From Chytriomyces cf. hyalinus JEL632 (taxonomy: Eukaryota > Chytridiomycota > Chytridiomycetes > Chytridiales > Chytriomycetaceae): a stretch of DNA of 64,000 nt. A program made the position numbers and the translations under genes. Location: the NCBI GenBank assembly GCA_025435555.1, contig JAIWWG010000140.1, positions 1-64,000 of the forward strand, in the 5' to 3' direction. The notes under the pieces were generated by a model. That model did no database searches and had not been told where the DNA came from. It was given only the letters and a program-made list of their open reading frames with translations. Of this stretch, positions 382 through 63,228 are shown piece after piece; the stretch's first letter is position 1; the number at the start of each line of letters is the position of its first letter.

Positions 382-1655
382 AACTAATCTTCAAACCATT
401 TAATCCCCGTTTAAACTGATACAGAACTTATTAAATATAAAAGATAAATATAATGTTCATAAAAGGATATAGGCCGATGCTTGCGCAATCAACAGCTTGT
501 TTTGAGGTAACTGATTCCGTTAGAGCCGAGGAGATTTTGGATCCATAAACTGAGCCTCCTAAATCATCAACAACGTCAGCATGCAAAACACACGTGCAAA
601 AAGACATCAATATTACCAGTTGTTCGACCACCTTGGCGAATGCGTGCACAACCGCATCATCACACGGTCTGCACACCGGCGGCGGACGTAGCGCCTTCGG
701 GAACGGCAGTTTCGCAAAATATTTCTCCTCCGCGAAAAACGCGCACTCATAACAGTCTGGCGACGGCAGCGGAACCTTGCTCGGCGTCAAATTGGCCGGG
801 GTGGGACTGGCTTGCGCGTGGGACCAGGTTGGCATCGTGAAGGGTGTTCTGGCTGGTGTCTTGTCAAGTCCAGGTAGTTTTGTGGGCGTGAATGGACCCT
901 TGCCCGCAGAAGCTCGGCTAATGAGACCTATTATGGCTGCTGCGGCAAGGGTCGCCTTGTCAGGTGTGTAGGTTGTCTTGGATGTAGGTGTGGCTGGCTT
1001 GGCGGCGGTGGGTGTGGCGTTGAGCGGTTGTGCTGGTGTCGATGGCGACGGTGTGGAGGGTGCAGTCACCCAGGATCGACTGAGAGGGCTGGGCTTGTTG
1101 GACCGGGGTGATGTCAACCGTGGCGGACGGGACGGCGTCAACTGGTCTGGGCTTTGTGGTGAATGTGGCAGGTGTGAAGAACGGTGTGGCGGCAGGTCGT
1201 GGTAAAGGTGTTGGTGTAGATGGACTAACGGCCACTGGAGCGCGCTTAATGAGGGCACAAGTTGCTCCAGCGGCCGGAGTGATGTTGGTGGTTGCCGTGG
1301 TTGACTTTGTTGAGGGTGTGGCGGTAAAAGTAGGTGGCGACTGGGTTGTGGCGGCGGATTGGGCACTCGCCGCTGAAGCTGGACAGTTAATTAGGCCAAA
1401 GCACGCTTCAGCGGCAGGTGCCACTTGAGCAGTAGTGTATGGGGTGGTCTTTGCGGCTAGTGTGGCGGTAGTTGCGATGGGAATGGTGGTGTCAGTGGGC
1501 ATTGCGTTGGACTTGTGGGTGGGTGGGTGTCTGGGTGAATGATGGGTTCAACGAGGTCGTGGCGGCGGTTTGGGAAGTGGGTGGAGCGGTAGTAGACGGC
1601 GGCTTGTTGGACGTTGTTGTGGCTGCAGCGATGAAAGCAGGTGGCGACTGGATTG

Positions 1656-1820
1656 TGTTGGAATCCCCGGCTGTATTACTGTGGCAGATTTCTTTAGATC
1701 TTTCTGGAACAAGTCATTGTTTTACCTTTTTGCTGTGCCACGATGATTTCATTTCTACGCGTATAAAAGGAAGCGTTTATTCGATAATAAACAATGACTC
1801 TTTCCACACAGATCTCAATA
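1656..1820 (+). repeat. 5' LTR of the copia element
   Basis: 165 bp, starts TGTTGG and ends CTCAATA. It contains a TATA box (TATAAAA at 1762-1768) and a polyadenylation-like AATAAA (1786-1791), the usual LTR promoter and terminator layout. The 3' end is set by the exact 5-bp target duplication rather than by a CA dinucleotide, which is slightly unusual for this family. Confidence 0.95.
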
Positions 1821-1842
1821 CGTTATCAGCACCATTGCTATA
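1821..1842 (+). other. putative primer-binding site
   Basis: The sequence directly after the 5' LTR (CGTTATCAGCACC) is where a copia primer-binding site must lie. It partly resembles the half-tRNA initiator-Met binding sites of copia elements, but I could not align it to a specific tRNA of this genome. Confidence 0.35.
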
Positions 1843-1862
1843 ATTAAAAAGCGACATCTTAC

Positions 1863-4800
1863 ATGAGCAAACACGAGACCCTACTCTACAACGGTGAAAA
1901 CTATCAGGAATGGGAGTTCGCAATGCGCCACCATCTTAACGCCAAGAAACTCGGAAGCACGTTAAAGACAGTTAAACCAGAAGCTTCTAAGGAAGAAGAA
2001 TTGAAAGAATGGTTAGCAATTGATGAGCAAGCTATGGGCAAGATAGTGGAATGGGTCGTTCTACGAGCACCTTAGGGAAGCTGCCACTGCACAAGAGATG
2101 ATGGCCGCAGTCAAGGATATCACGGCATCAGACAAAACTAACCTGTTGTTCAGAACCCAGACAATGTTCAGAGGTCTAAAAATGAAAGAAGGAGGTGACG
2201 TAATCAACCACTTAGCTAAAATGGAGGAGTACTGCCGAGTGCTTGGAAAGAAACTAGTTAGTGATCAAGACATGATCAATCAAATAATGAGAAGCTTACC
2301 GAAGTTGTGGGAGAATGTCCTCCCAGCAATCAGAGCACAGACTGGCCTGATGACGAACTACAAGGATTTCAAAGGAAAAATTGTCTCAGAGTACAAGTAC
2401 ATGCGAGCCGAAGGCAAGGAAATTGGATCCAGCAGAGGCATAGCAATGCAGGCGAAACAGAGTAACGGGAAATTCAAGGGCGAATGCAACAATTGCGGCA
2501 AGCCAGGGCACAAGAAAGCACAGTGTTGGGCCAAAGGCGGCGACAAAGAAGCTCAAGGACCAAGACAGATCAAAGCCAAAGATGATGAGAAGAAAGCTCA
2601 TCAAGTAAATCAACCAAGAAACTTTGTGCTTACTGCAGCAAAGATAAAGTCAGGAGATGGTGACTGGATTCTGGACTCTGGAGCCAGTAACCACATGACA
2701 GGCGACAAAGAAATTATCAAGGGCTTGACAAGTCAGGACGACCTCAGCAAAGTAACAGTAGCAAGTGGTGACCAGTTTGAAATCAAGGGGATTGGGTCAG
2801 TTGAATTGAAGGGTGAGAAAGGCACAGTGACAATTACCGGAGTTCTTTACGTACCGGGCCTATCTGTGAACCTCCTGTCAATTTCAGCACTAAGTTTGAA
2901 AGGCGCAACTATGAATTTCGACGAAATGGGTGCATCAGTTTCGATAAACAACATGATCATCCTCCGTGCCACTGATATTCGTGAAGGACTGTACACACTG
3001 CCAGAAAACAAAGTTGGATTAACAACAAAGATTATTAGAGAAACTACCATGCAGGAAGCTCACCGATTCATGGGGCACTTGAACGCAAGGGACCTTAAGA
3101 AACTGCCAGATCAAGTCGACGGCATTCTCATCAAGGACAAGGACCTTGGAGCCTGTAGCGTGTGCATGGAAACAAAAGCTACAAGAAGTATTGGAAAGGA
3201 GAAATCAGCACGAGTGGAAACACCAGGCGAAGAGCTAAATCTGGATCTTACCTTTATAAACGGCATGCTGGTGCTAATGATTTCAGACACTGGAAGTGGA
3301 TGCACATTTGCAAAAATATTAAGCAAGAAAAGCGATGCATTTCAAGGAATTCTTGACATCATTAAGTCGATCAAAACCCAATACAACCGTAAAGTGAAAG
3401 TGATCGTTTCTGACGGGGGAGGCGAGTTCATTAACAGTAAATTTTCGAGATGGTGCGAATCAAATGGCATCAGGCACCACATCTCCACGCTGCACACACC
3501 AGAGCAAAATGGAATCGCCGAAAGAAAGAACCGTACTATAGTAGAAATGTGCAGAGCATTGTTAGCAGACGCGAAAATGGACAAGGAAAAGTACTGGATA
3601 CACGCACTGGAGATGGCTGTCTACATCAGGAGCCAATGTCCCACAAGAGTGATTACTGGAAACAAAACGCCTTTCGAAGTTTTGACGGGAAAGAGGCCGA
3701 ATTTGAAGTACATGTGTCGATTCGGTGAACAATGCGTAGCGTACGTCGATGGACACAAGCGTGGAAAGCTGGACAACAAGGGTGTTCAATGTCGAATCCT
3801 GGGAATCAAAGAAAAGGGATACTTACTGTTGGAAGTCGACAGCGGAAGGATCTTCGAATCAGTTCACGTTAAATTTCCCATGCAGGAGACAGTGGAAGAC
3901 ATTATAGAGTCAGAAGATGAACCACCTGAACTACTGTCAGATTCAGAGAATGAAGCTGAAGAACCAAGTAGACCCTGTCCACCCAGACCAGCTGTTGCAG
4001 ATCCTGGTCAAGGTGGACCAGCTGTCTCCTCATGTACTCAACATAAAGGAGAGCTCAAAATCTCTGGAATGCATGAAGATGTGGGAAACAGGTGTTTGAG
4101 CACCTGCAGACCCCATACGTAACAAAGATGTGAAATCCACGTAACTTCATGTTAGTGATCACACACACATGTCTCTGGCATATCTGCCAAGTCCTACAAC
4201 CACCCACGTGCCATCCATGGCTATTTATGGTCACTGGATGAGAAGTTGTGAGGCATACTGCCAAGACCCCAATAAAGCTTTATTTACACAAAGTTGGGAC
4301 CTTAAACGATCTACCACGATAACACACCATCACATGACACCCTCACCAAGTCGTCATAAGGTGTCAGACTCTATCACTCTAGAGAATACCAACAGTACTA
4401 AGCCAAACTACCTGCAACACCAAGCATTCGGCAGAAACACACCAGTACATAGCTTGTGTAGTTGAAACGAAGGTTTGAGCCTGGATAGGCGGCACTTGAG
4501 GACCTAGATCTTGCATAAGCAAAGTTCAAAGTTAGTACACCACAGTCAAACTGACACGCTGAAACGTACATGGACAGCAGGCAGCGCTGCTTACCTGTAC
4601 ACCGTCACTTGGACCCATGGCTCCCTACCCAGGTGGGAGAGTCCCCGTCAGAGGTCCAAAGATACAGTCATATGCACTTTGGACGTTGGTTGGATAGTTT
4701 CTTATTCAAATCGTAACTTTTTGGATTGGTAAAGGCCCAACAGTCCTTGGGGACGTTCGGGGGATTTCCATCTCGGTTCTTTATAATTTCTACCATGAAA

Positions 4801-6821
4801 AAATAGCAAACCATGGAAATACCCACGATTTTCCACCCATGAGTGATTCTTTCATGTTCTATTCCAAAGGGTATAAATGGTAGAGCTTCCACAAGGCAAA
4901 TAAACATCTTCTTAGACCAAAATCATCGTTGTAGCACCTAGTCCTCAAGTCACAAACCCTCGTACTGCGTGCCACCACCATTTGTACCGACACCAGCAGC
5001 AACCACAGAGCCAACACGCGAAAGACGGAAAGTATTTCTAACACCAGAACCAGAAGAACAAGACCCAGAAGAAGAAGCTGAGACACGAAGCCCATCACCA
5101 ATCCGCATCTTACAACAATTGTCCCAATCGAAATCACAGCAAAGAACGAACAATACATGTGATAGAGCCAAGAGACAAGATTCCTACAAAAGATATCAAT
5201 TCATCAATCAATCAATCAAACATTATTGAAGGGAAAAGGAGAAAAGCTGCTTACGCGTTTTCGGCAATAACTGACGATCTGAAGTCAATTGCTGAAGCTC
5301 TGAAAAGAGACAATGCACCCAAGTGGAAAGACGCAATACTGGATGAACTAAACTCGTTAGTTGAGAACGGGACATGGGAAGTCATTGATCTGAGAAAGGA
5401 ACCCACCGAGAACATCGCCGATACCAAATGGGTCCACAAGCGAAAACAGGATGCAGCTGGAGTGTTCGAAAAGTACAAATCGTGATTGGTTGTTCGAGGA
5501 TTCACCCAAGTTGAAGGGGTGGACTATGATGAGACATTCGCGCCAGTTGTTCGATCTACAACAATCAAAGTTTTGATAAGCGTTTCGTTAGCAAAGAAGT
5601 ATCGAATCACTCAAATGGACGTCGTAACGGCTTACCTTAATTCAAAAATGGATTACAACGTGGTGATTCGAATCCCAGACGGTTACGAGCTTTTAGACCC
5701 CCAGATCGACCGAAAATGACATGCATTAAGACTTTCGAAGGGATTGTATGGAACCAAACAAGGTGGCTATCTGTGGAACGAGGAATTTAAAGGAACATTA
5801 GTTAGTATTGGATTTAAGCAAGCAGTATCCGACCCTGGACTATTCAGGATCCAACAAAACGGGAGTGAATTGCTTATCACCTTGTACGTGGATGACATCT
5901 TGATCGCGACAGATAATGAAGACCTGCGAAAGTGGGTAGAGAACCAGTTAGTTAAGAAGTACAAAGTCAAAAATGATGGGGGAGATACACACGTTACTCG
6001 GATCAGTCATCATGAAAGGCGGACGAGCGAGCTTCCAGCAGTCAAATTACTTGGAATCGATTGGACAACGGTACCAACTGGAACATACGAAGTACACGAC
6101 GCCATTGGAGGCTGGAATCAAATTGCCAGATGATGATACCGCATCGACTGTGGAACAATATCAAAACCTGTTGGGAGCGGTGATGTACGCGTCAATTTCG
6201 ACAAGACCAGACGTAGCGTATGCAACAGCCTGCCTGGGACGATTTGCCTCAAAGGCATCAGAAGCGCATTGGACGGCACTGAAGCGACTGACTGGATACT
6301 TGGTGAATACCAGCAAGCTGGAACTCAAGTACGTTGCCAGAAGAGAAAATTCGATTGAGGGGTTCGTCGACGCTAGCCACTTGAGTGAAGGGGCATATGG
6401 AGTGAGCGGACACGCCATATTCATTGGAGGAAATCTCGTTGCTTGGAGATCTCAAAAGCAAAAGGCCGTCGCGTTGTCATCTATGGAAGCTGAAATGAAC
6501 GCGTTGGTGGATGTTATAAAGGAAGTAGTATGGCTAAGAGAACTACTCACCGATTTGGGTGTTTCAGCAATCAAGACCGTCGTATACGAAGACAATCAAG
6601 CGGCGATAGCGTCCAGCAAAAACGCGATTGTGAACGACCGTACGAGACATATGCTAGGCAAGACGACGTTTGTACGAGAGACTATCAAGGAGTGTAACAT
6701 CGAGTTAGTGTTCATTCCCACCAAAGATCAGAGAGCAGACGGACTCACCAAGGCGAAAGGACCAGGTGCTTTCGAGAAGTTCCGCGAGGGGATGGGATTG
6801 GGGTACAGCGTCGCCGGGTAG
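1863..6821 (+). pseudogene. copia gag-pol polyprotein, multiply disrupted
   Basis: Starts ATG 1863 with a copia-type gag. The CCHC zinc knuckle (CNNCGKPGHKKAQC) is near 2485-2530, the protease motif WILDSGASNHM near 2665, the integrase HHCC finger and D-D-E core between 3060 and 3540, the RT signature YVDD near 5885, and RNase H acidic residues (FVDAS, MEAE, EDNQA, DQRAD) between 6360 and 6740. Breaks seen: a one-base shift near 2055-2058; the 910-bp insertion at 4033-4942; a frame change near 5100-5150; in-frame TGA at 5483-5485 and 5717-5719 (both where related elements usually have Arg, consistent with CGA to TGA); and a frame change near 5970. Every domain is still easily read, so inactivation is recent or was inherited from a defective template. 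Confidence 0.93.
4033..4942 (+). repeat. solo LTR nested in the copia integrase-RT spacer
   Basis: A 910-bp non-coding block interrupts pol. It is flanked by CCTCA at 4028-4032 and 4943-4947. Removing the block plus one CCTCA (915 bp, a multiple of three) rejoins the frame on both sides. It begins TGTACTCAAC and near its end has TATAAA (4872-4877) followed 22 bp later by AATAAA (4899-4904), the same promoter/poly-A arrangement as the copia LTR. It encodes no protein. It is best read as the solo LTR of a different LTR retrotransposon family; the end ...CTAGT is not a canonical CA. Confidence 0.7.
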
Positions 6822-6827
6822 GGGAAG
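6818..6827 (+). other. polypurine tract
   Basis: GTAGGGGAAG directly abuts the 3' LTR; the uninterrupted purine run is GGGGAAG at 6821-6827. This is the position used for plus-strand priming in LTR elements. It overlaps the end of the RNase H frame. Confidence 0.75.
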
Positions 6828-6992
6828 TGTTGGAATCCCCGGCTGTATTACTGTGGCAGATTTCTTTAGATCTTTCTGGAACAAGTCATTGTTTTACCTT
6901 TTTGCTGTGCCACGATGATTTCATTTCTACGCGTATAAAAGGAAGCGTTTATTCGATAATAAACAATGACTCTTTCTACACAGATCTCAATA
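6828..6992 (+). repeat. 3' LTR of the copia element
   Basis: 165 bp, identical to the 5' LTR except at position 6977 (T instead of C). It is followed by the second GATTG target copy and then by host coding sequence. Confidence 0.95.
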
Positions 6993-44860: not shown

Positions 44861-46400
44861 ATGGTCAACATTGATCCGGACACCGACTTTACGCCCTACG
44901 CTTCCATCACAACGAAGGAGCTGCACAAGATCGTCATCGCCTCCTGCGTGGGCACGCTCATTGAGTGGTATGACTTCTTCGTCTTTGGATCCATGGCAAG
45001 CACCACCGCTTCGCTGTTCTACAAGACCGGGACTCCCACCGGTGATATCATTGCTTGGCTGGCTGCGAACGCCGTTGGCTTCATTTTCAGACCCTTCGGA
45101 GCCTTGGTGTTCGGATACATTGGTAAACACGATCTTTCTCGTTCTCTCGTTCCAAACTGTGTTTTTCTGAATCATGATACTCTCAAAAACAGGCGACAAA
45201 GTGGGCCGCAAATACACGTTCGCTCTCACGCTCGTGACAATGGGTGTGTGCACGGTGCTGTGCGGGTGTCTGCCCACATACGACAACATTGGTCCAGCTG
45301 CCGGTGTGATTCTCATTATCCTGCGTATCATTCAAGGTCTCGCCATTGGTGGAGAGTATGGTGGCGCTGCGAGTTACATTGCGGAACACTGTCCTCACAA
45401 GGAGCGAGGTTTCTGGACCAGTTTTTTGCAGAGCACGGCCACAGGCGGTCTCATTCTTGCACTTGCTATCATTCTCATTTTCCGTGTCTCGTTGGGAGAG
45501 GCTCGATGGGCTCAGTATGGATGGCGGTTCCCCTTCCTCATTTCCATCTTTATGATTGCCGTTTCGCTGTACATCCGTCTCAAGATGAAGGAGTCGCCAC
45601 TTTTCGCCGAAGCGAGACTGAAGGGAAAAGTCGCCAAGAACCCGCTCGTTGAATCTTTCCTGAGACCTTACAACTTGTACTACGTCATCTTGGCTCTGTT
45701 TGGTGCTACAATGGGTCAAGGCTGCGTTTGGTACACGGCCCAGTTTTATGCATTGACATTCATTCAAACTACCCTCAAGACACCGCTGATTACGTCGTAC
45801 CTGGTTGTCATGATTGCATGCATTCTCGCACTTCCATTCTTTACACTTGTGGGTTGGTTGTCCGACAGATACGGACGCAAACCATTCTTGTTGGTTGGAA
45901 TCACTGCGGGAGCTGTGTTCTTTTACCCAATGTACATGGGTCTTTATTACTTCCGTCCATACGAAAACAACAAGGCCACTGAAGCATTCCGTGACGAGTA
46001 CAGCCCTGCTATGCTTGGATTCATTGTCTGGATGATGATCATCTTTGTCACGATGGCATATGGTCCCATTGCCGCTTTCTTGGTGGAACTGTTCCCAACT
46101 TCCATCCGATACACGTCCATGTCGCTGCCGTACCACATTGGAAACGGAATCTTTGGAGGTCTTGTTCCAGTATTGGGTGTCACTGTTGCAACTGCGACCG
46201 GAAACCGATACGGTGGACTGTTTTTCCCGATCGTTTGTGCCGGGATCACTTCCATTGTTTGCCTGGCTCTTGTGCCAGAGACGATGGGACGTGATATTGA
46301 AAACATGGAAAAGGCTGGTGCCAACACTCTGGACAAGGAAGAGGCTGCAAACCGGGAGACACTTGCTGCCGCGCCGGGACATTTCGTCACAAGTGCTTGA
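44861..46400 (+). CDS. MHS-family (ProP/ShiA-like) H+ symporter, left copy
   Basis: Exons 44861-45122 and 45193-46400 (70-nt phase-1 intron) give 489 aa. Twelve hydrophobic segments. The MHS signatures are clear: GTLIEWYDFFVFGSMAS in helix 1, the RPFGALVFGYIGDKVGRK loop 2-3 motif, LLPTYD-like CLPTYDNIG, and RIIQGLAIGGEYGGAA. The family is mainly bacterial and imports small carboxylates, betaine, proline, shikimate or phthalate-like acids with protons at the plasma membrane. ATG 44861 is the first Met of the frame. Paralogue of 61271-62785 in mirror orientation, with the intron at the same codon. Substrate unknown. Confidence 0.88.
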
Positions 46401-46833: not shown

Positions 46834-47391
46834 TTACCAATTGCACGTCCCCTTCTTAAACCCAGCCGCGTTTCCACGGCAGTGGCCGCTTGCACACTGG
46901 GAATCGGTCCAACATGAAACACCGTTCGGCACGAGCTTGCAGTAGTCGTATCCAGCATACATTGTCACGCCGGCAGCACCGTCTGGCTTATTGCGGCAAC
47001 AGCCCTTGTTGCCCGTAGCACCCCAATATGCGCAGATGGAGGAGTAGCAGTCAAAGTAATCGCCACACGCGGCACCCGGTTCAGATTGCAGGACTTTGTA
47101 TCCGCAGACAGCACCGTTGGCACTCGTTGGCCCGAATCCCCATAGGCGGGCATCCTTCAGCCAGCATATACCACTGCCCCATGTAAAGTAGGTGCACTTG
47201 TTGGATTCCAAGCATTTGCCGCCACACTGTTCGGCTGGAACATTGTAGTGGGCGTAGTCGCCGCCGTTGAAGTCGCAGTTGGGGGCCCATTGGATCTTGC
47301 CGTTTCCGTCGCCGGCGTTCCAGTAAAAGTCTTGGGCCAAGGTGGAGGAGACGAGCGTGACTGAGACGAGGAGAACTTTGGTGAGTTGCAT
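46834..47391 (-). CDS. secreted PAN/Apple + Cys-rich protein, left copy
   Basis: Single exon, 185 aa. The signal peptide MQLTKVLLVSVTLVSSTLAQ is followed by a PAN/Apple-like segment (CDFNGGDYAHYNVPAEQC ... CTYFTWGSGICWLKDA), a fold often binding carbohydrate or protein ligands. The C-terminal half has about ten Cys in a pattern (CGDYFDCYSSICAYWG ... CCRNKPDG ... CASGHCRGN) also found in the tail of the neighbouring GH55 enzyme, where the equivalent is CQNRACGRFG ... QCCPRA ... CASGYCKN. The shared tail suggests both proteins act on or attach to the same extracellular surface. Paralogue at 56917-57465. Confidence 0.8.
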   Translation of the reverse strand: MQLTKVLLVSVTLVSSTLAQDFYWNAGDGNGKIQWAPNCDFNGGDYAHYNVPAEQCGGKCLESNKCTYFTWGSGICWLKDARLWGFGPTSANGAVCGYKVLQSEPGAACGDYFDCYSSICAYWGATGNKGCCRNKPDGAAGVTMYAGYDYCKLVPNGVSCWTDSQCASGHCRGNAAGFKKGTCNW

Positions 47392-48070
47392 GCTTGTTTT
47401 TTGGTGGTTACAGTTGTTGTTTTTGCCTCAGACGGTTTTTATACCGTTACGGCTGGATTTCAAGCGTCGACAGCAGACGCGACGCAAATTGATTGGGGCT
47501 TTATTGGGAATTTTTCCCTTGAGCGAATCTCCATTGAACGTTTGTAAATTGGATCACGTTGTGCAGCAGTGACGCAAAACAACGGCATGTGCGCGAGTGA
47601 AGCTGCCTTGCGTTTGGATGCCACGCAACGAGTTACAATCCAGTCGAGTGCTGCGCGAACGCGATGGAATGCTTGCTGCAAGCTTTGCGTAAAAAAATTG
47701 CGGTACACAAACCAATTTAGCCGGAATTTTCAATTCAGACTTTTGGCTTTTGCGTCGGAGAGTGACTCAGATTGGACGTTTTTGGGATGATTGGACGCGT
47801 GACTACGAACAGACAGGGTTAATAGGGCATGCCGACTGGGAGACAGTGGGGCAAGAACCTGCCCTGGGATGCGGTGAGACGGAAAGAGGAGGGGCGAGAG
47901 TGCGGGGCAGCTAAGCGAGGTAGCCACGCCATCTCAAGCGGAGTGCGCCATTCCCAGGCAAGCCCCTTTGTACGAGGCCGGCTTGGTGTTTAATCATTTC
48001 CAGAGGCGATACAAATAGGCACTCGGCCCCACGTCATACCAATTCACATACTTGGAATTTTGCAAGAACG
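47392..48070. promoter_or_regulatory. divergent promoter of the PAN protein and the GH55-SMD gene
   Basis: 679 bp between two divergently transcribed secreted-protein genes, so both are likely controlled from here. No defined factor site; the end nearest 48071 is mixed GC-rich sequence. The mirror position in the right arm (56681-56916) is only 236 bp and lacks obvious similarity. Confidence 0.45.
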
Positions 48071-51000
48071 ATGCAACTCCTTCTGTTCGTGCTATCGCTG
48101 GTAGGCCTGAGCCACGCCAGCTTCTGGCTCCAAGACATCAAGCACCAGGGAGTGTTGCCCTTTGGCGGTGACAGCGCATACACCGTATTCAGAGATGTTC
48201 GCGCGTATGGCGCCATGGGTACACCCTTCCTCTTGATTGACCTTGACCTTGTCCATCTGTTTTCTAAGGCATCCCTTGCTGCATTACCAGGTGACGGTAT
48301 CACCGATGATACAGCCGCCATCAACAAAGCTATCACGGAGGGAAAACGCTGCGGTCTGGGTTGTGACTCCACCACGGCCACACCAGCTATCATTTACTTT
48401 CCTCCTGGCACGTACCTCGTGTCTGCTCCGCTCATCCAGTACTACTACACCTTCATGATTGGAGACGCCAATCAACTTCCCACCATCAAAGCTGCCGCCA
48501 ACTTTGAAATGAAGACACCGTGGTTCACTTATGTCATTGATGCCGATCCATATGGTCCTGGCGGAGTAAACTGGTTTGTGAACCAGAACAACTTCTTCAG
48601 GCAGATTCGCAACTTGAAAATCGACCTGACTGGACTTCCTGCCACGGCCTTGATTGGCGCCATTCACTGGCAAGTTTCCCAAGCAACCAGTCTTCAAAAC
48701 ATTGAAATCACAATGGCCCCGGCTTCACCTGAAACGAAGCAGAAGGGAATCTTTATTGAAAACGGTTTGTCCTTTTAATAGCGCGTTCTTTTGCTTGTAT
48801 TCTGCCCAATCTAACCATGCCTACAATCAAATGCAAGGCTCCGGGGGCTTTTTCACCGACATTGTCTTAAACGGCGGAGACATTGGAATGGATGTTGGAA
48901 ACCAGCAGTTTACAACGCGTAACATTGTCTTCAACGGATGTAACACTGCCGTCACGATGAGTTGGGACTGGGGATGGGTCTTCAAGTCCCTTCAAATCAA
49001 CAACTGTGGCACTGGAGTTGACATGAGCGTTGTCAATCCAACAAGCGGCAAACAAGACGTTGGATCGGTTATCTTGCTGGACTGTAAGATATCCAACACG
49101 GGAGTTGGCATCAAGACTTCATTCGGGATCGCCAACAACGGATCGGCTGGCTCGCTCATTGTCGACAATGTGATTTTCGACAACACGCCCAGTGCAGTGA
49201 CGGACTCTGGAGAAGTTGTTCTTTTTGGGAACACTGTTGTCAAGTCATGGGGCCAGGGATTTTATTCTGACGGCAGCTCACAGTTCCCACCGTTCCGCAT
49301 GCGGGGGAGCCTGGACAACATTGAGAAGCCAGCTGAATTACTGGACACGACCGGCAAATTTTTCGAAAAGAGCAAACCGCAATACAAGGACCTGCCTGCT
49401 TCCGCATTTCTCAGCGTGAAAAGTGCCGGAGCTAAAGGTGTGTGCGCTTTTTTTTTCCGGAAATTTTCTCATCGCTCTCCTGACCATTTCTCTTTTGTCT
49501 TTTAGGCGACGGTTCTACCGACGACACGGATGCCATTCAAAACGTGCTCAACTCTGCTTCCTCATCGCACGTTGTCTTTTTTGATCATGGTGCCTACCTT
49601 GTGTCGCGTACCATTCTTGTACCGAAGGGTGTCCGCATTGTTGGTGAAGCTTGGCCCATCATCATGGCAAAGGGTGCCGCATTCCAGAATCCAACAGCTC
49701 CTGTTCCAGTGTTCCAAGTGGGTAACGTCGGGGACGTGGGGTCGGTTGAAATCTCGGATCTCATGTTTGGTAATATCTGGGAGAACAACGTGTGCAATTC
49801 ACTGAAACAAAACTGATTCTTTTGTTGTTATATAGAAACTTCTGGCCCTCAACCAGGTGCTATTCTCATCCAATTCAACATGAAATCGAGCTCCCCTGGC
49901 GCTACGGGAATGTGGGATGTCCACGGAAGAGTTGGTGGAACGATTGGAAGTCACTTGCAGCAGGGCGAGTGCTTGCATGGAAGCTTAAACTACGAATCTT
50001 GCTCCGGACCTTTCCTGATGATGCACATTACAAAGTCAGCCGGAGTCTACATTGAAAACTCGTGGATGTGGACAGCCGACCACGATTTGGACTCTGGCGG
50101 TAGCACAAGAGTCAGCATCTTCACAGGAAGAGGAGTTCTCATTGAAAGCGAGTCGCCAGTGTGGTTGTATGGTACTGCTGCAGAGCATAATCAGATGTAC
50201 AACTACCAGTTCTCAGGAGCTTCCAACATCTTTGCCGCTATGCTTCAATCCGAAACTCCATACTACCAAGGCACCCCAGACGCGTTAACACCCTTCAAAA
50301 CGAACGCCGACTACAACGACCCCGACTTCTCCAACTGTCTCCCAGGAAGCAAATCATGCGTCCGATCCTGGGGTCTTCGCGTTGTCCAGTCGAGCAACAT
50401 TATGATTTACGGAGCAGGGCTGTACAGCTTCTTTGAAAACTACGCGCAATTGTGCATTGGCACGCTTTCCTGTCAAGATAATATGGTCTCCATTGAGGCC
50501 AGCAAAGTGACCATGTTCAATCTTCACACAGTTGGAACATCAAACATGATTTCGATAGACTCGGAGCCACGTGTGCCCGCTGAACCTCTCAATGCAACTT
50601 ACTGCTCAACGCTTGCCATGTTTGGTGCGTATTCCTTCTCATGCTGTGTATCATTTCAAATCAGTTTCTGATGCACGTTTTGGAAAAACATTTCAGTTTC
50701 TGACGTATCGTCAGTACAGCCACCCATTACTCGTCCCTCAAAAAGAATCCGTCCATTCTGGATAGTAGGACACAACCCCAACAGCATGGAGGAAGTGCAA
50801 AAGTTTATCGACCAAGGTGCCAACGCACTTGAACCTGACTTTGGGTACAGATCCAACGGAGGTGGGGCGATTGCCATCTGCCACTTTGTGGACGCTTCAA
50901 CAGAATGTGGAGCACAGGATCAAACTGCTCAGGACTATCTAAACAAGCTTCGCGAAAAACTTACGCAGCAAAGCCGCAAGATTTCAACCATCATGTTGGA

Positions 51001-52549
51001 CATCAAGACTTCACTGGTTCGAGCGCCGACTGCGTTTAATGCGCCCATGAAGCTGATGAGCATGATTCATGACTTGACTAAAGATATTCCCTTGAATATT
51101 ATGTACTCTGTGTCTTCGTTGGATGAGGCGAAAGTGTTCTTTACACCAGAATTTGTAAAGAACTTGGGACCCAAGGAAGGAATTTACATTGACTACGAAA
51201 ACCAGCCACAAGTTGTATTGGTGAGTCCATTTCTGTTCTTGGCTCAGTGGATTTTTAACAAAAAATGACTGGTTCTAATTTAGGATTACTACAAATCCAT
51301 CAACGCGCCTCGCTACGGTTACGGAAATGGAATTTCCTTTGCGAACCCGGGACAAGATATTTGGGCCCCAAATATTCGTCCCTCCATTCGAGAAGCATCT
51401 TGGTACCAAGCAGCTACTGGACAGGGTCAATCTGTCGGAACTTGGACCAGCAACGCACGTACCGACCAACTAGACTTTATTCGCGGCGGAGCGAGTTCCA
51501 TTATTGTGGATACTTCAAAAAGCTCATCGGATCCATACGTGCGCGGCATCCAATCCTTGGTAAATCTCATCAAGTTGAACTCTGAAGTGAAAAGCCTCGT
51601 TCGATTGGGAAGCATCAAAGACAACTTGTGGACATCGAATCTGGGTCGATACGGACTTGCAATCAACGTGCCTGAATATGTCGAAAAAGTGGGACCCAAC
51701 CGTAATCTTATCACGCTCACACTGGTTGGCGCCAATGGCCAAGCATCGTGTGTTGTCGACTACTCGTATGCGCACCGATTGGACCCTGACGACCCGACTT
51801 ATGCAACTATTGTCTCAGAGGACCTTGGAACACTGAGCAAAATCATCGTAGACAGCCCAGTTGCAACGAAAATGAATATCCGCGTAGTCAGTTCCTGGTA
51901 CTCGCAAGATATGGAGTTTGCTGATTTCACAGACATCTCAGCCGGGAAAACAGAAGTCAAGCTGCAACGACCAAGCTGCACAGGACTTTACCCTTGCAAA
52001 GGCACTGCCATGGGTTCTCCCTGCAAAAAGAACCGCGACTGCCAGAACAGAGCTTGTGGGCGATTTGGGAAAGGTGGCGACTACCAATGCTGTCCCAGAG
52101 CAACACTTGAAAACTGGGGCGGGAGCGACTACTGTATGGGGGTTGTAACGGGTACGAGTTGTCATACAGATGCCAAGTGCGCGTCAGGTTACTGTAAGAA
52201 CAGCGTATGCACAGAGCGAAAGCAGAATGGAGAAAGTATGTCTTTATTTTTACTTATCAGTTAATTTTTTGGGGTTCTGATGAGGAAACCTTTCTTTCCT
52301 CTTTCAATTTGATTCCCAGAGTGCTCAAAAAGCGATGATTGCTTGAATCATGCATGTGGTACAGCTGAAGGCCGAAAGATTTGCTGTTTATCCAGTCATG
52401 TCAACGGCGCATTCTGCGCAAACGACAGCTGTAACGATGCTGATTGCGAGTTTGGATGTTGTGGTACGTCTTGCTGCCGTGATCCATGTGCGAGCTGCAA
52501 GTACGGCTGCTGCCTTGGTTCATGCTGCGATGGCCCACTGCAGAGGTAG
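48071..52549 (+). CDS. secreted GH55 beta-1,3-glucanase fused to an SMase-D/PLD-like domain and Cys-rich tail
   Basis: Exons 48071-48218, 48291-48764, 48838-49437, 49506-49769, 49836-50624, 50697-51220, 51284-52235 and 52320-52549 join in frame to 1326 aa. Signal peptide MQLLLFVLSLVGLSHA. Residues about 20-755 form two pectate-lyase-like beta-helix halves, each opening with GDGxTDDT (GDGITDDT, GDGSTDDT), typical of GH55 exo-beta-1,3-glucanases. Residues about 770-1160 resemble sphingomyelinase D / phospholipase D: His784 (VGHNPN), Glu804 and Asp806 (ALEPDF), His821 (ICH), Asp860 (MLDIKTS). Two Cys-rich modules follow (about 1167-1250 and 1251-1326, the last with CC pairs). Family knowledge: GH55 trims glucan; SMase-D domains cleave choline-type head groups by transphosphatidylation. 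The fusion's activity is inferred. It is convergent with its own truncated copy. Confidence 0.85.
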
Positions 52550-53127: not shown

Positions 53128-53241
53128 GGACTCAGGGTAAAATTTACTAAAAATAATCTAAAAAGAACACCTTTATTCGGACAAAAATTCCGTCTCTTTG
53201 GAAAACTATTTTTTCCTTCCGAAATCATCTGCATCAAAACT

Positions 53242-56200
53242 CTACCTCTGCGGTGGACCATCGCAGCATAAACCAAGACAGCAACCGTACCTGCAGCTCG
53301 CACAAGGGTCACGGCAGCAAGACGTACCACAGCATCCAAACTCGCAATCAGCATCGTTACAGCTGTCATTAGCACAGAGACCGCTGTTGAGACGACTGGA
53401 TAAGCAGCAGATTTTGGAGCTGCTGCCACCACACGCATGATTCAAACAATCATCGCTATCTGAACATTCTGTATCAAAAAAAAAGATTGGCTCATCAGCA
53501 AAGCGCAAAGGAAAACAAAATAAAAGACCCCTTACTTTCTCCATTTTGTTTTCGCTCCGTGCAAACGCTGTCCTTGCAGTAACCTGACGCGCATTTGGCA
53601 TCGGTATGGCAGCTTGTACCCGTTACAACCCCCATACAGTAATCACTTGTACCCCAGACTTCAAGAGTTGCTCTGGGACAACATTGGTAGTCACCACCTT
53701 TCCCAAATCGCCCACACGCTCTGTTCTGGCAGTCGCGGTTCTGTTTGCAGGTAGCCCCCGCAGCAGCGCCTTTGCAAGGGTAAAGTCCCGGGCATGTGGA
53801 TGCTTGCAGAGCGACTTCAGTTTTTCCGTTAGAAATGTCGGCGAAATCGGAAAACTGCACGTCTTGCTTGTATGAAGCACTGACGACGCCTACAATCATT
53901 TTTGTACACTGGGCTCTCTACAATAATTTTGCTGAGTTTTCCAAGGTCTTCTGAGATAATGGTCGCGTACGTGGGGTTGTCAATGTCCAAACGGTTCGCA
54001 TATGAGTAGTCCACAATACACGATGCTTGACCTTTGGCGCCAACAAGCGTGAAGGTGACGAGATCACGATCACGTCCCACCGTTTTAACTGCTTGAGCGA
54101 CGTTGATGGAAAGTCCGTATCGGCCCAGATTCGATGTCCACAGGTTATCTTTGATTGTCCCAAAGCGAACGAGACTTTTGACTTCAGAGTTCAACTTGAT
54201 CAGATTCACCAAAGATTGGATCCCACGCACGTATGGGTCTGATGAGCCTTTTGAAGTATCTACAATAATGGAGCTGACTCCGCCACGGATAAAGTCTAGT
54301 TGATCGGTACGCGCATTGCTGGTCCAAGTTCCGACGGATTGTCCCTGTCCAGTAGCTGCTTGGTACCAAGCTGCTTCTCGAATGGAAGGACGAATATTTG
54401 GGGCCCAAAGATCTTGAGCTGGGTTTGCAAAGGAAATTCCGTTACCGTATCCGTAACGTGGTGCCTTGATGGATTTGTAGTAATCCTGTGGTTATTTGTT
54501 AATTTTCTGTTGATATTCCGCCGAGCAAGAAAGCGAACGCACCAAAACAACTTGTGGCTGGTTCTCATAGTCAATGTAGAGTCCTTCCTTAGATCCCAAT
54601 CCTTTCACAAATTCAGGAGTGAAAAACACTTTCGCCTCATCCAAAGAAGACACAGAGTACATAATGTTCAACGGAATGGATTTCGTCAAGTCATGAATCA
54701 TGCTCATCAGCTTCATGGGCGCATTAAACGCGGTCGGCGCTCGAACCAGCGAAGTCTTGATATCCAACATAATGGTTGAAATCTTGCCCGGCTGTGCCGT
54801 CAACTTTTCACGAAGCTTGTTGAGATAGTCTTGAGCAGTTTGATCTTGCGTTCCGCATTCTTTTTCTGCGTTGGCCGAGTGGCAAATGGCAATGGCTCCA
54901 CCTTCGTACGACCGGTATGCAAAGTCGGGTTCAAGTGCGTTTGCGCCTTGATCGATGAATTTTTGGACTTCTTCCATGGTGTTGGGGTTGTGTCCTACCA
55001 CCCAGAATGGTCGGATTCATTTTGGGGGTGCTAGGGGTGGGTGGCAGGTCTCCTGATGACTTTCCAGCAATGACTGTCATAATTTCAAAAAACATGTTAA
55101 GAACTAAGCATGCGCAAGTTCAAATACTCTTACCAAACATGGCAAGCGTTGAGCAAAAAGTCGCATGGAGCGTTTCCGCAGGAAGAGAAGGGACAGAATT
55201 GATTGCAATCATATTGGATGTCCCTACAGTGTTGAGATTGAACATGCTCACTCCTCGACTGGACTCGATGGAAACCATGTTATCTTGACACGAAAGTGCG
55301 TCGATACACGCCTGTCCATAGTTTTCAAAAAAGCTGTACAGCCCTGCTCCATAAATCATAATGTTGCTCGACTGGACAATACGAAGTCCCCAGGATCGGA
55401 CGCACGATTTGCTTCCTGGAAGGCAATTGGAGAAATCGGGGTCATTGTAGGTGGGGTTGGGTTTAAACGGCGTTAACGCGTCTGGGGTGCCCTGGTAGTA
55501 TGGAGTCTCGGATTGAAGCATAGCGGCAAAAATGTTGGAAGCTCCTGAGAACTGGTAGTTGTACATCTGATTATGTTCAGCAGCGGTTCCATACAGCCAG
55601 ACAGGCGACTCGCTTTCAATGAGAACTCCTCTTCCTGTGAAGATGCTGACTTGAGCGCTGCCGCCAGAGTCCAAATCGTGGTCGGCTGTCCACATCCACG
55701 AGTTTTCAATGTAGACTCCGGCTGACTTTGTAATGTGCATCATCAGGAAAGGTCCGGAGCAAGATTCGTAGTTTAAGCTTCCATGCAAGCACTCGGCCTG
55801 CTGCAAATGACTTCCAACCGTTCCACCAACTCTTCCGTGCACATCCCACATACCCGTAGCACCGGGGGAACTCGGTTTCATGTTGAATTGGATGAGAATA
55901 GAACCTGGTTGCGCGCCAGAAGTTTCTGTATGACAACAAAAGAATCAGTTTTGTTTCAGTGAATTGTACACGTTGTTCTCCCAGATATTACCAAACATGA
56001 GATCCGAGATTTCAACCGACCCGACATCCCCTGCAGAACCCACTTGAAATACTGGAACTGGGGCTGCTGGATTCTGGAACGCAGCACCCTTTGCCATAAT
56101 GATGGGCCAAGCTTCACCAACGATACGGACGCCTTTCGGGACAAGAATGGTACGAGACACAATGTAGGCACCATGGTCAAAGAAAACAACTTGCGATGAG

Positions 56201-56680
56201 GAAGCAGAGTTGAGTACTCTTTGAATGACGTCCGTGTCGTCGGTAGCACCGTCACCTGATAAAAAAGAACGGGGAGAAAATGAGCGATAAGAAATACTTT
56301 CTAGAAAAACAAAAAAGAAGTAAGGCGCACACACCTCTCGCTCCGGCACTTTTCACACTAAGAAACGCGGACGCAGGCAGGTCCTTGTATTGTGGCTTGC
56401 TCCTTTCGAAAAATTTGCCACTCGCGTCCAGTAATTCAGTGGGCTTCTCAATGCCGTCCAAGCGACCCTGCATGCGGAACGGTGAGTCACCGCCAAAATA
56501 GACTCCCTGTCCCCATGACTTGACCACCGTGTTTCCAAACAGCACAACTTCCCCAGAGTCCGTCACTGCAGTGGGCGTGTTGTCGAACTTCACATTGTCG
56601 ACAATGAGTGAGCCGGAAGATCCATTACTGGCGATACCGAAGGAGGTCTTGATGCCGATTCTGGTGTTGAGAATCTTACT
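53242..56680 (-). pseudogene. 5'-truncated, frameshifted copy of the GH55-SMD enzyme
   Basis: The minus-strand copy follows the intact gene exon by exon from the middle of its exon 3 to the stop codon TAG at 53242-53244. All introns are at the same places (about 56260-56337, 55926-55992, 55001-55135, 54487-54545, 53473-53536). The SMase-D motifs VGHNPN, ALEPDF, AICH and MLDIKTS are retained. The first third (signal peptide and much of the first beta-helix half) is absent: homology stops at about 56680. A frame change at about 53903 interrupts the region before the Cys-rich tail. Without a start or a signal peptide, it is not expected to give a secreted enzyme. Confidence 0.85.
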
Positions 56681-56694: not shown

Positions 56695-56862
56695 TTGCCC
56701 AGTTTTGTTTCTTTGTTTGGAGATAGATTCGCTCAAGTGAATTTCAATCAATCAATTGTAAACAATCAAACTGACTTGCAAACAACTCAAGCCCAGTCAA
56801 TCCAAACAATATAAAAATCATCCCCCCAAAACACCAACAACCCAACAACCCAACAACCCACC

Positions 56863-56913
56863 AAAACAAACAAACAAACAAACAAACAAACAAACAAACA
56901 AACAAACAAACAA
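56863..56913 (+). repeat. (AAAC)n microsatellite in a 5' UTR
   Basis: About twelve AAAC units ending 3 bp before the ATG at 56917, preceded by a CAACAACCCA tandem at about 56833-56860. In-leader position means length changes could affect translation. Confidence 0.9.
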
Positions 56914-56916
56914 AAC

Positions 56917-57465
56917 ATGCAATTCACCAAAGCTCTCTTTGCCGCAGTCACCCTCGTCTCCTCCACCCTCGCCCAAGACTGGCACGACGGCGACGGCAAC
57001 GGCAAGATCCAATGGGCCATGGACTGCGACTTTAACGGCGGCGACTACGCCCACTACAACATCCCCGGTGAACAGTGTGGCCGCAAATGCTTGGAATCCA
57101 ACCAATGCACCTACTTTACATGGAACAACGGCGTCTGCTGGCTTAAAGACGGCCGCCACTGGGGAATCACTCCTTGGGGTGCCAAGGGTGCCGTTTGCGG
57201 TTACAAGCGCCAAAGAAATGACGGTGACGAATGTGGTGATTACTTTGACTGCTACTCGTCCATCTGCGCGTACTGGGGTGCCACGGGCCATAAAGCATGT
57301 TGCCGCAACAAGCCAGACGGTCAAGCCGGCGTGTCTGGGTATGCCGGATACGACTACTGCAAGCTTGTCCCTGACGGTGTTTCATGCTGGGCCGATGATC
57401 ATTGTGCAAGCCGCCACTGTCGTGGAAACTTGGGTGGGCTTAAGCGGGGAACTTGCAAGGCTTGA
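56917..57465 (+). CDS. secreted PAN/Apple + Cys-rich protein, right copy
   Basis: Single exon, 182 aa, signal peptide MQFTKALFAAVTLVSSTLAQ. PAN-like CDFNGGDYAHYNIPGEQC ... CTYFTWNNGVCWLKDG, then the Cys-rich tail CGDYFDCYSSICAYWG ... CCRNKPDG ... CASRHCRGN. Closely related to 46834-47391 and placed as its mirror image. All Cys of the left copy appear retained, so selection is likely still acting, unlike on the enzyme fragment beside it. Its leader is an AAAC repeat. Ligand unknown; carbohydrate or wall binding is a guess from the PAN fold. Confidence 0.82.
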   Translation: MQFTKALFAAVTLVSSTLAQDWHDGDGNGKIQWAMDCDFNGGDYAHYNIPGEQCGRKCLESNQCTYFTWNNGVCWLKDGRHWGITPWGAKGAVCGYKRQRNDGDECGDYFDCYSSICAYWGATGHKACCRNKPDGQAGVSGYAGYDYCKLVPDGVSCWADDHCASRHCRGNLGGLKRGTCKA

Positions 57466-57750: not shown

Positions 57751-58720
57751 TCAACAGCTGAGTGGAATTCTGACAGCATCCTTGTCATGCTTGTCCAAGT
57801 TTCCAAGGTCAAAGATGCCTTCAAGGGTAGCCAAGAAGCTGTAGTGGTCATAGTGCGCATTGTCGACAAGACCTGCTCCCTTGATGCCCTTTCCGAGGAG
57901 AATCGAGTCTGTTGAAAGACAGAGTAAATACGCTTGAATAAAGAAATACAAACAGAATCAAAAATTAAAATACACACAGATATGGTTTGGCCCAAAATAC
58001 GTCTCCGACTCATCAAACACAACGTGAAACAACACATTCGCAAATGCAGGGTCCACCAATTTAGGCTCCAAAAACGTCTTGAGCCAGTTGGAAGCATACG
58101 ACGCGCTCGTATCATGTCCGTCATTGTTCATATCAGGTGTGTAGAAAATGTAATTTGGAAGCTTTCCAGCAGCCGCGTCACGGGTGAGTTGGTCCGAATT
58201 GACAATGTTGGCGCAACGGGTGGGGTTCCCGCGGATGTTGTTGAAGGACATGAAGGGGTTGTGTTTGCGGCGGTATGTGCCGGAGGATGTGCCGGTGAAG
58301 CAGTTTCCTGGGTAGGATTCTTGGTATGATTTCCACGTCTTGCCTTTTTGCTCGAGGAGGTCAACGACCGAGTTCTGTTGGTGGGGAGAACGTGTCAGTT
58401 TCATTGGTATTTCTTGATTGTGTGATACTCACAGCGCCAATCTTGCAGTCAAAGTCAAGCAGACACATGTTTCTGCTTCCGGAGATCATGGCAATGTAGT
58501 TTGGCTGGGACGGGTGAGTGACGCCGTAAAAGTTGTTGAGCAGGTACCCCTTCTTGACGAGTGTGCTGCCCATGTAGGAGTCAGCCAGGATGGTGGATCC
58601 GTCCTGGTTCTCAAGGACAATGGTCATGACGCTCTTGATGGGCTGGCATGCGGCTGCGACTTGGGAGACGGCTGCAGCAGCAAGGACTGCGAGAGCGAGT
58701 GCGGAGTTGGCGAAGTGCAT
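57751..58720 (-). CDS. secreted phosphoesterase (acid phosphatase / phospholipase C-type, PF04185 family)
   Basis: Exons (minus) 58720-58433, 58374-57978 and 57908-57751 give 280 aa; introns 58 and 69 nt. The signal peptide MHFANSALALAVLAAAAVSQVAA precedes the catalytic start TIVLENQDGSTIL. Other family motifs: GVTHPSQPNYIAMISG, FYTPDMNNDGHD, VFDESE and DNAHYDHYS, which supply the metal and nucleophile ligands in this alkaline-phosphatase-like superfamily. Members hydrolyse phosphomonoesters or phospholipids outside the cell. Phosphatase versus phospholipase C cannot be decided here. It sits only in the right arm of the mirrored cluster, next to the S1/P1 nuclease. Confidence 0.85.
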
Positions 58721-61270: not shown

Positions 61271-62785
61271 TCAAGAAGCAGACACAAACCCACTTCGTCG
61301 TTGCAACTCGGAATATCCACTCCGCTCATCCACTCCATTCAACCGCGGTGCAGAACCCTTCTTGATTTTCCGAATATCTCGCCCAAGTGTCTCCGGCGCA
61401 AACAGCAATGTCGTAAAGAACCCAAACGAACAAACACCGATCGGGTAAAAAAGGCCTCCAAACACATTCCGCGTTGCAGTTGAAATCGAAACTGCCACGA
61501 CAGTCACAAGACCCCCGAAAATCCCGTTTCCAATGTGATATGGAATCGAGACACATGTATACCGAATCCCAGTTGGAAACAGTTCTACAAGAAACGCTGC
61601 CATCGGCGCATACGCGGCTGCACCAAATACATTCAAGATCCAGAGATAGAAGCAAATCAGGACTGGATCATAGTTTTCGCGAAACGGCTGTTTCGGGTCA
61701 TTTTTTTCATACGGCCGGCATGCATAGACTCCATAGAATAGCGGATACAAGAAGAACGCACTCAGCGCCACGCCAGTCAGAATCATGGGTTTCCGCCCAA
61801 CCTTGTCGGACGTCCAGCCAAACAGAATCTGAAACGGTATGGTTCCCAGCAGTGCAATCAGCATAATGATGTACGATGTCATTTGAGGGACTTTGATGGT
61901 GGACTGAAGAAATGTGAGGGCGTAAAAATTCGCCGTCTGGAATGTGATTCCTTGGCCCATCACTGCCGCAAGAGCGACAAACATGTAGTACAGATTGTAC
62001 GGCAGACAGATGGCTTCAACCAACGGATTTCCCACGACACCACCTTCCCTTTTCGCTTCCATAAACATTGGAGACTCCTTCAAATTGAACCGCACGTAAA
62101 CGGACAAGCCAACCAAAAAGATGGACACCAAGAACGGAAATCTCCAGCCATACTGCAACCACGCAACATCCCCCAAAGACAGTTTAAAAACAATAATGGC
62201 CAAAAGCGACATGGAGATGCCCAGTTTGGCAGTCATTTGTAAAAAGGATGTGTAAAAGCCGCGTTGATCTTGAGGACAGTTTTCGCAAATAAAGGCAGCA
62301 GCGCCGCCGTATTCGCCACCCACTGACAGACCCTGAATGATGCGCAGGAGAATGAGAAGGAATCCGGCCGTGACTCCGATGGTGTCGTATGTGGGCAGAC
62401 AGCCAACGAGAAACGTTGATGCGCCCATCATGGATAGAGTAATCAGGAATGTGCTCTTACGTCCGACTTTATCGCCTGTGGGGGAGTGTGAATACCCAGC
62501 ACGCAAAGAAATAAAGCAAAGCACAAACAACGCACCAATGTACCCAAACAAGAAAGCACCAAACGGCCGAAACATGAATCCAACAGCAAACGCACCCAAC
62601 CACGCAATCAGGTCTCCATACGGATTCCCCGTCTTGTAAAACAGCGACGCCGTTGTGCTGGACATTGTCCCAAAGATGAAAAAGTCGTACCACTCGATCA
62701 ACGTGCCCAGCGATGAGATGATGGCAACCCGCCGCATTTCGGATTGCGTGAGTTCATCGAATGTGGTGAATTCGGCGCTGTTCAT
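61271..62785 (-). CDS. MHS-family (ProP/ShiA-like) H+ symporter, right copy
   Basis: Exons (minus) 62785-62536 and 62475-61271 give 484 aa. Signature segments GTLIEWYDFFIFGTMSS, RPFGAFLFGYIGDKVGRK, CLPTYDTIG and RIIQGLSVGGEYGGAA match the left copy. The phase-1 intron is at the same codon as in the left copy, but here it is 60 nt, a multiple of three, with no stop, so an unspliced mRNA would also encode a protein with a 20-residue insertion in a cytosolic loop. Imports a small organic solute with protons; substrate unknown. Mirror partner of 44861-46400. Confidence 0.88.
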   Translation of the reverse strand: MNSAEFTTFDELTQSEMRRVAIISSLGTLIEWYDFFIFGTMSSTTASLFYKTGNPYGDLIAWLGAFAVGFMFRPFGAFLFGYIGALFVLCFISLRAGYSHSPTGDKVGRKSTFLITLSMMGASTFLVGCLPTYDTIGVTAGFLLILLRIIQGLSVGGEYGGAAAFICENCPQDQRGFYTSFLQMTAKLGISMSLLAIIVFKLSLGDVAWLQYGWRFPFLVSIFLVGLSVYVRFNLKESPMFMEAKREGGVVGNPLVEAICLPYNLYYMFVALAAVMGQGITFQTANFYALTFLQSTIKVPQMTSYIIMLIALLGTIPFQILFGWTSDKVGRKPMILTGVALSAFFLYPLFYGVYACRPYEKNDPKQPFRENYDPVLICFYLWILNVFGAAAYAPMAAFLVELFPTGIRYTCVSIPYHIGNGIFGGLVTVVAVSISTATRNVFGGLFYPIGVCSFGFFTTLLFAPETLGRDIRKIKKGSAPRLNGVDERSGYSELQRRSGFVSAS

Positions 62786-63228
62786 TTTTGATGCAGTGCT
62801 TTGCTGCTGCTGCGGAGTTTGGTGCGCTTTTTACTTTTTTTTACTTTTAGATTTTATCAAATACGTATAGACGTGATAACCTCGAGTCGTTGTCGACGTA
62901 TCTGTTAACACAAGCACTTTACGCGTCTTAAACGCTCCTCAGTTTCAAAATATTCATCCACTGACCGTTGAAGATGTCGTCAGGAGGTGGCGATAAATCA
63001 AGCTGCTATAAAATCGACAGTGGTGTGCGAACAGGTGTTTGAACGCATGGGTGACTCCAGGATAGCGTTACCCTTGAAGGGGGTAACAATTATCGTGCGA
63101 AACTTTAGCAGCTGGCACGGGAAAGTACTGTTTATAAAGTCAGGAATTTTTCACCGGCGAGAAGTGGAAGCCCCAAACCAAAGGCAGTGCCCTTCCAAGC
63201 GTCTCTGATCCATCCCATTACTAAACAG
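62786..63228. other. intergenic
   Basis: 443 bp. Promoter of the transporter; a TATA-like CTATAAAATC at about 63004. A splice-acceptor-like CTAAACAG directly precedes the ubiquitin-like ATG. Confidence 0.4.

Follow-up and report, generated by a model that had tools for sequence, protein, structure and literature searches.

Our analysis of the first 64,000 nucleotides of contig JAIWWG010000140.1 (hereafter the window) from the chytrid Chytriomyces cf. hyalinus JEL632 (assembly GCA_025435555.1) revealed a gene at 48071-52549 on the plus strand that encodes a 1326-aa multidomain protein, in which a GH55 glucanase is joined to a sphingomyelinase D/phospholipase D (SMase D/PLD)-like barrel (hereafter SMD), a PLAT/LH2-like domain, and two Cys-rich modules. 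The fusion reads through in a single frame, keeps its catalytic residues in place, and recurs with this architecture in gene models of Chytriomyces hyalinus. It is a new architecture built of known domains, and the best explanation, which we consider reasonably probable, is that one secreted protein carrying all of these parts behind a signal peptide acts on both glucan and lipid.

One gene and one chain

Re-splicing and translation of the gene confirmed the eight exons joining in frame (48071-48218, 48291-48764, 48838-49437, 49506-49769, 49836-50624, 50697-51220, 51284-52235, and 52320-52549, plus strand) that had been proposed in an earlier note made from the sequence of the window. All seven introns are 63-84 bp long and of the GT...AG type, with phase 1 for introns 1-5 and 7 and phase 0 for intron 6, and the spliced gene carries one terminal stop and none inside. 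The chain opens with a putative signal peptide (residues 1-17; 48071-48121), assigned by eye from a hydrophobic stretch with SHA-S next to it and from GH55 homology that begins at residue 16-17. The GH55 glucanase (residues 18-758; 48122-50622, introns inside) was delimited by phmmer and by active-site mapping to MnLam55A, and intron 5 (phase 1; 50625-50696) marks the GH55/SMD junction. A linker (residues 759-776) and the SMD barrel (residues 777-1050), placed by homology and by a homologue model, together occupy 50697-51634, with intron 6 (51221-51283) inside the barrel. They are followed by the PLAT/LH2-like domain (residues ~1051-1161; 51635-51967), Cys-rich module 1 (residues 1165-1250; 51977-52234) with 12 Cys, and Cys-rich module 2 (residues 1252-1326; 52322-52546) with 18 Cys in ~76 residues. 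The chain described in the earlier note, namely one secreted protein of GH55, an SMD-like PLD, and two Cys modules, is supported by the sequence, by two C. hyalinus models, and by an unbroken second copy; that description was incomplete in having missed the PLAT-like domain, which separates the SMD from the Cys-rich tail.

Two separate genes wrongly joined would be a conceivable source of such a chain, given that the minus-strand paralogues in the genome are broken and that the join rests on DNA rather than RNA. The GH55 and SMD halves, however, are only 72 bp apart, and Met757 and Met789 are the only methionines within residues 742-800; the stretch from the end of GH55 to His784 thus contains none, and an independent SMD gene would lack a start codon in that stretch ahead of its catalytic His. 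The same join was found in the second copy (C20:17883-22362), which shares the eight-exon structure with GT-AG introns, has one terminal stop and no coding indel, and differs from the window copy by 6.9% in introns and 1.1-6.3% in exons. It also appeared in two hypothetical proteins of C. hyalinus. One of these, P0001 (HDU78_010638; 1233 aa, partial), matches at 88% in the SMD region and, unlike the full-length fusion, stops at the end of Cys module 1. The other, P0051 (HDU81_000700; 77% in the SMD region), carries the GH55 end, SMD, and PLAT, but its sequence begins within GH55, misses part of the barrel, and extends no further than PLAT. The 72-bp gap, the lack of an intervening Met, and the recurrence of the join in C20, P0001, and P0051 led us to reject two wrongly joined genes as highly improbable. 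The ratio of nonsynonymous to synonymous substitution (dN/dS) between the window and C20 copies was 0.109 overall, 0.091 in GH55 (93 changes), 0.097 in SMD (16 changes), and 0.126 in Cys module 2 (9 changes), showing that the GH55 and SMD parts are under purifying selection.

Evidence for the individual domains

In phmmer comparisons against solved structures, the GH55 part matched CtLam55 (5M5Z; E 1.6e-245) over residues 17-758, PcLam55A (3EQN; E 4e-200) over residues 17-739, and MnLam55A (8JHH; E 3.5e-80), establishing homology across the double beta-helix and bearing out the GH55 assignment of the earlier note. The active site of MnLam55A comprises the general acid Glu614 and a helper Tyr617, together with Glu140, Gln172, Ser203, Glu591, His592, Trp552, Trp554, Asp557, and Phe143 in the water relay, subsite -1, and aromatic block (PMC10637969). 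Glu635 (50252-50254) and Tyr638 of the fusion align with the general acid and its helper, and eight of the nine remaining positions are identical (Gln180, Ser209, Glu612, His613, Trp572, Trp574, Asp577, and Phe151). At the ninth, corresponding to Glu140, the fusion carries Gln148, as do 5M5Z and 3EQN in our alignment, and SacteLam55A carries Thr149 (PMC10637969). Because the mapped residues are kept and Gln148 is shared with 5M5Z and 3EQN, enzymes called exo-acting in the same paper, the GH55 part looks catalytically competent and would be more exo-like than endo-like.

The SMD part carries His784 (50771-50773), Glu804 (50831-50833), Asp806 (50837-50839), His821 (50882-50884), and Asp860 (50999-51001), the last four at +20, +22, +37, and +76 from the first, with Lys862 (51005-51007) also present; these correspond to His12, Glu32, Asp34, His47, and Asp91 of cd08576. 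The residues named in the earlier note were in place with the exact 20/22 spacing, and they align in register with spider phospholipases D, which were the top phmmer matches among solved structures (4Q6X, E 9e-7; 3RLH, E 1.4e-6; 4RW3, E 1.8e-6). The 4Q6X match spans residues 19-120 of the 283-aa query, approximately the first 100 residues of the barrel, and with its catalytic residues in register it led us to reject a chance spacing. The beta-alpha-1 loop is short and without the insert of glycerophosphodiester phosphodiesterases (GDPD), as the alignment to 4Q6X and 3RLH runs without gaps between the first His and Asp806, with nothing more than short gaps between there and Asp860. The GDPD-like SMase D/PLD family is described by its catalytic residues and a C-terminal motif, ATxxDNPW (PMC3815110); residues 1042-1049 of the fusion read GSIKDNLW, in which D, N, and W are kept and A, T, and P are replaced by G, S, and L, respectively.

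The fold of the barrel was approached through a homologue, P0009, from a Polyangiaceae metagenome-assembled genome, modeled by AlphaFold2 from a 60-row alignment that included P0001 and P0051 (predicted local distance difference test score [pLDDT], 87). Its invariant His88, Glu108, Asp110, Asp158, and Lys160 sit at the ends of strands 81-88, 106-108, and 154-159 or immediately beyond them. The structural check put forward in the earlier note was therefore passed by proxy only, with the first His, the Glu, the first and later Asp, and the Lys located at barrel strand ends. Foldseek comparison of this model with the PDB returned spider phospholipases D first (3RLG, E 2.5e-16), along with an Arcanobacterium PLD (9YD8, E 2.8e-9) and lipoxygenases (from E 7.5e-9, ~115 columns), the last of which were taken to be matches to their PLAT domains.

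The SMD part could instead be a lipid-binding remnant with little catalysis, leaving GH55 as the working enzyme, an explanation that we regard as improbable. It would be in keeping with the altered tail motif, with the long chytrid branch described below, and with the behavior of the second catalytic His among homologues. In a census of 124 proteins (P0001-P0124) in one automatic alignment, the His12 position was His in 123 (Arg in one) and the Glu32, Asp34, Asp91, and Lys93 positions were each conserved in all 124, whereas the His47 position was His in only 60, with Glu (23), Phe (19), and Trp (15) as the commonest others, some of these perhaps misaligned. The proteins without an aligned second His, about half of the set, may form a subfamily that is inactive or works by a changed mechanism. 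On the other hand, His occupies this position in the window protein, P0001, and P0051, all three of which keep every mapped catalytic residue, and the low dN/dS of the SMD region also argues against a remnant.

The PLAT domains found downstream of SMD in homologues can be aligned with residues ~1051-1161 of the fusion. PF01477 was matched by homologues P0002-P0004 (2e-12 to 1.5e-13), but gave no Pfam match in the window protein or P0001, and a search with it found none in the fungus's own genome, a negative that carries no information because none of 14 control genomes gave a match either. Profile-profile comparison with hhalign gave a 98% probability between the chytrid PLAT-like stretch (four rows given, three kept) and the PLAT pieces of homologues (92 of 122, the other 30 being without the selection pattern). 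A fold of residues 1040-1250, which are contiguous in exon 7, predicted from a 17-row alignment, had an overall pLDDT of 61, with block means of 66-91 over piece residues 11-120 and values below 50 in much of the Cys part. Lipoxygenases and lipases took ranks 1-33 when this model was submitted to Foldseek (from E 1.9e-4, ~115 columns), and 15 matches reached 0.001. These enzymes are the usual carriers of PLAT domains, and the matched stretches are presumably those domains. Both the profile similarity and the predicted fold are consistent with a PLAT/LH2-like domain.

The Cys parts had no match in Pfam, and the Cys tail had none in the PDB. Module 1 resembles the C-terminal half of a small secreted protein encoded nearby (46837-47427, minus strand), with 34.7% identity over 75 aa and E 9e-11 in a three-sequence comparison, and the likeness was recovered by a genome search too (36%, E 8.7e-5); a local Cys module may have been added to the fusion chain. 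This small protein and a second one (56815-57462, plus strand) each combine a weak PAN-like half with a Cys-rich half. Their matches to PF14295 (E 3.4e-4 and 1.4e-4, respectively) are both below the curated cut-off, and the PAN-like half of the former is N-terminal.

Homologues, origin, and genomic surroundings

When the SMD region was compared with 5.8 billion proteins, restricted to the length class of the full protein, four of 1560 candidates matched: P0001 and three unnamed proteins of 906-928 aa (31-35%) with PLAT downstream of SMD. The SMD alone (288 aa) gave no match at E <= 1e-3 among 622 candidates in its own length class. The wider family was recovered with a five-sequence profile (A2), which found 208 matches among 8000 scored candidates. 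Among the 120 matches listed, 87 carry a precomputed PLAT label (PF01477), suggesting that the SMD-PLAT pairing is widespread, and the six named organisms among those listed were Streptomyces, two Polyangiaceae, a member of Deltaproteobacteria, one of Verrucomicrobiota, and C. hyalinus (P0051). Two further precomputed labels were observed: PF27525 on P0001, absent from our local Pfam scan of that protein, and PF27711 on many SMD-PLAT matches. Two peptide patterns, applied to 84,980 prokaryote genomes, picked out 57 stretches; at least 24 loci were confirmed, all in bacterial records (e.g., Verrucomicrobia, Myxococcales, Acidobacteria, Methylococcaceae, Sphingomonadaceae, and Bacteroidetes). 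The SMD-PLAT pair is not special to this gene, being common in bacterial or unnamed proteins.

A tree of 112 rows was built from the window copy, the C20 copy, 95 proteins (P0001-P0099 without P0027, P0073, P0075, and P0083; P0100-P0124 were left out), and 15 of the 24 prokaryote loci, without known AT-like, ST-like, or Aquatic SMD sequences. The chytrid SMDs formed one clade (support 100) beside the main group, with a branch length of 2.4 changes per column. This placement was flagged as a possible long-branch join, and therefore no claim is made on the donor. Most likely, the gene arose when an SMD-PLAT unit similar to those of many bacteria became joined to a GH55 gene already resident in the genome. 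This is the simplest reading because the named relatives outside Chytriomyces in our searches were bacterial and because the genome has resident GH55 genes without SMD; the direction of transfer is one that we infer. Two such resident genes, on contigs C134 and C2, are similar to the fusion in its GH55 part alone. The C134 gene has a PAN-like tail (PF08276, E 9.4e-5, above its cut-off), and the C2 gene has a proline-rich tail with a hydrophobic stretch at its end.

Downstream of the fusion lies a convergent paralogue (53240-56680, minus strand; 82.5% nucleotide identity over 3509 columns), which has lost its first ~290 codons and has a frame break near residue 1126, so that it looks like a pseudogene. 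Its C20 counterpart keeps the 5' half but has more frame changes than introns would account for. P0001 resembles this minus-strand type (93-95% in four intron-free stretches) more closely than it does the C20 plus copy (81-84% in such stretches). SMD exon-6 DNA occurs four times in the genome, in the window, in the C20 plus copy (98%), and in two minus-strand copies (84-85%). Across 42.8-59.1 kb the window contig is collinear with C20, the individual blocks being 94-97% identical, with insertions and a gap between blocks, and contig C54 matches the window at 99% over 20-22 kb and at 94% over 44.9-47.5 kb, ending inside a GH55 exon; both are either alternative haplotypes or recent duplicates. 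A relic on C166 (L025 ~4456-4145, minus strand), in which the C-terminal end of GH55 is fused directly to a PLAT end and then followed by stop codons, is another trace of the fusion. Elsewhere in the window, a Copia-type retroelement (1655-6992) was recognized, with a gag/integrase open reading frame (2047-4119), a further pol-like open reading frame assigned by eye (5952-6818), and 166-bp repeats that are 99.4% alike (1655-1820 and 6827-6992). Major facilitator superfamily/sugar-type transporter genes (PF00083) stand on both sides of the cluster (45171-46397, plus strand; 61274-62830, minus strand), and an exon of the phosphoesterase family (PF04185, E 1.6e-21; 57985-58374, minus strand) adjoins it.

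Proposed function and comparison with known systems

We propose that the fusion protein is secreted to act on a cell that bears glucan, or on what is left of one. The GH55 part would cut beta-1,3-glucan via its intact active site, and the PLAT-like domain would dock on lipid surfaces. The PLD barrel, with His784, His821, and a metal held by Glu804, Asp806, and Asp860, would release the head group from a (lyso)phospholipid or phosphosphingolipid, and its product would probably be a cyclic phosphate, by analogy with characterized family members. For the Cys-rich tail, a role in binding or stabilization is probable. The activity, substrate, and biological target are in each case predictions from sequence. 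Specificity for sphingomyelin was rejected as a claim; an ambiguous substrate preference of the family is stressed in PMC6299612, sphingomyelin itself may not be the substrate, and the name sphingomyelinase D would denote a putative activity. A bolder version, in which a single secreted enzyme would first breach a glucan wall and next cut the lipids of the underlying membrane, the action suggested in the earlier note, having been formed from a laterally acquired bacterial SMD-PLAT unit and a resident GH55, is possible but appears doubtful.

Saprotrophic scavenging is a comparably tentative alternative, in which dead algal, pollen, or fungal material is digested and the PLD acts broadly on lysophospholipids, freeing their head groups, with no attack on living cells. 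Family members do act on diverse lysophospholipids (PMC6299612), the two GH55 genes without SMD look like ordinary secreted or anchored enzymes, and transporter and phosphoesterase genes lie nearby. Scavenging, however, leaves unexplained why two activities and a PLAT-like domain are joined in one chain. Fungal glucanases can also act on their own walls, which lends some credit to a role at the fungus's own wall or plasma membrane, either in sporangium or rhizoid remodeling or in a cyclic phosphatidic acid signal. In Physarum, a member of the Aquatic clade has been put forward as a candidate synthase for cyclic phosphatidic acid (PMC6299612). The present evidence does not separate own-cell from outside action, and we consider the own-cell role unlikely.

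Several observations weigh against a secreted enzyme acting on both glucan and lipid. The single chain is a prediction from gene models and genomic sequence, and the barrel fold is one from the proxy P0009. A Pfam scan of the window protein gave neither an SMD nor a PLAT family, the confidence of the PLAT model is only moderate, the SMD tail motif is altered, and the second catalytic His is kept in fewer than half of the homologues. The dN/dS values for PLAT, the linker, and Cys module 1 rest on three changes each and say little. As to origin, the chytrid SMD branch is very long and its placement unsure, and a PLAT-bearing SMD in Pyrenochaeta (Cordes and Binford 2018, PMC6299612) makes a fungal source also possible.

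If a secreted enzyme of this kind is correct, a venom-family phospholipase in an early-diverging fungus would be covalently linked to its own wall-opening enzyme, packing wall and membrane attack into one molecule. The fusion extends the deep history of the SMase D/PLD venom-enzyme family to a chytrid and offers a testable two-enzyme protein. The earlier note knew of no described enzyme with this architecture, and we found no description of a GH55-SMD/PLD fusion, nor anything on sphingomyelinase D in Chytridiomycota, in open-licence PMC papers, where absence is weak evidence; the main text of Cordes and Binford (PMC6299612) does not contain the word chytrid.

Members of the SMD family with PLAT, Ig-like, PUD, VMO-I, and Cys-rich domains have been described by Cordes and Binford, with surface recognition and adhesion as a common theme of these accessory domains, some of which are likely glycan-binding (PMC6299612). 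They noted PLAT in three basal SMD sequences, one of them from the ascomycete Pyrenochaeta lycopersici with N-terminal Ig-like repeats. In these basal cd08576 sequences PLAT follows the SMD barrel, as in the fusion, whereas none of the cd08576 architectures in section 8 of that paper includes a glycoside hydrolase. CtLam55 (5M5Z, 757 aa) and PcLam55A (3EQN, 758 aa) resemble the fusion across the whole GH55 part and in their active-site residues, but the matched chains are without SMD, PLAT, and Cys modules. Spider venom phospholipases D (SicTox; 4Q6X, 3RLH, and 1XX1) share with the fusion the catalytic His/Glu/Asp/His/Asp set and its spacing, and probably the barrel fold, as judged from the homologue model; unlike the fusion, they are single-domain proteins, with 19-24% identity to the modeled bacterial homologue P0009.

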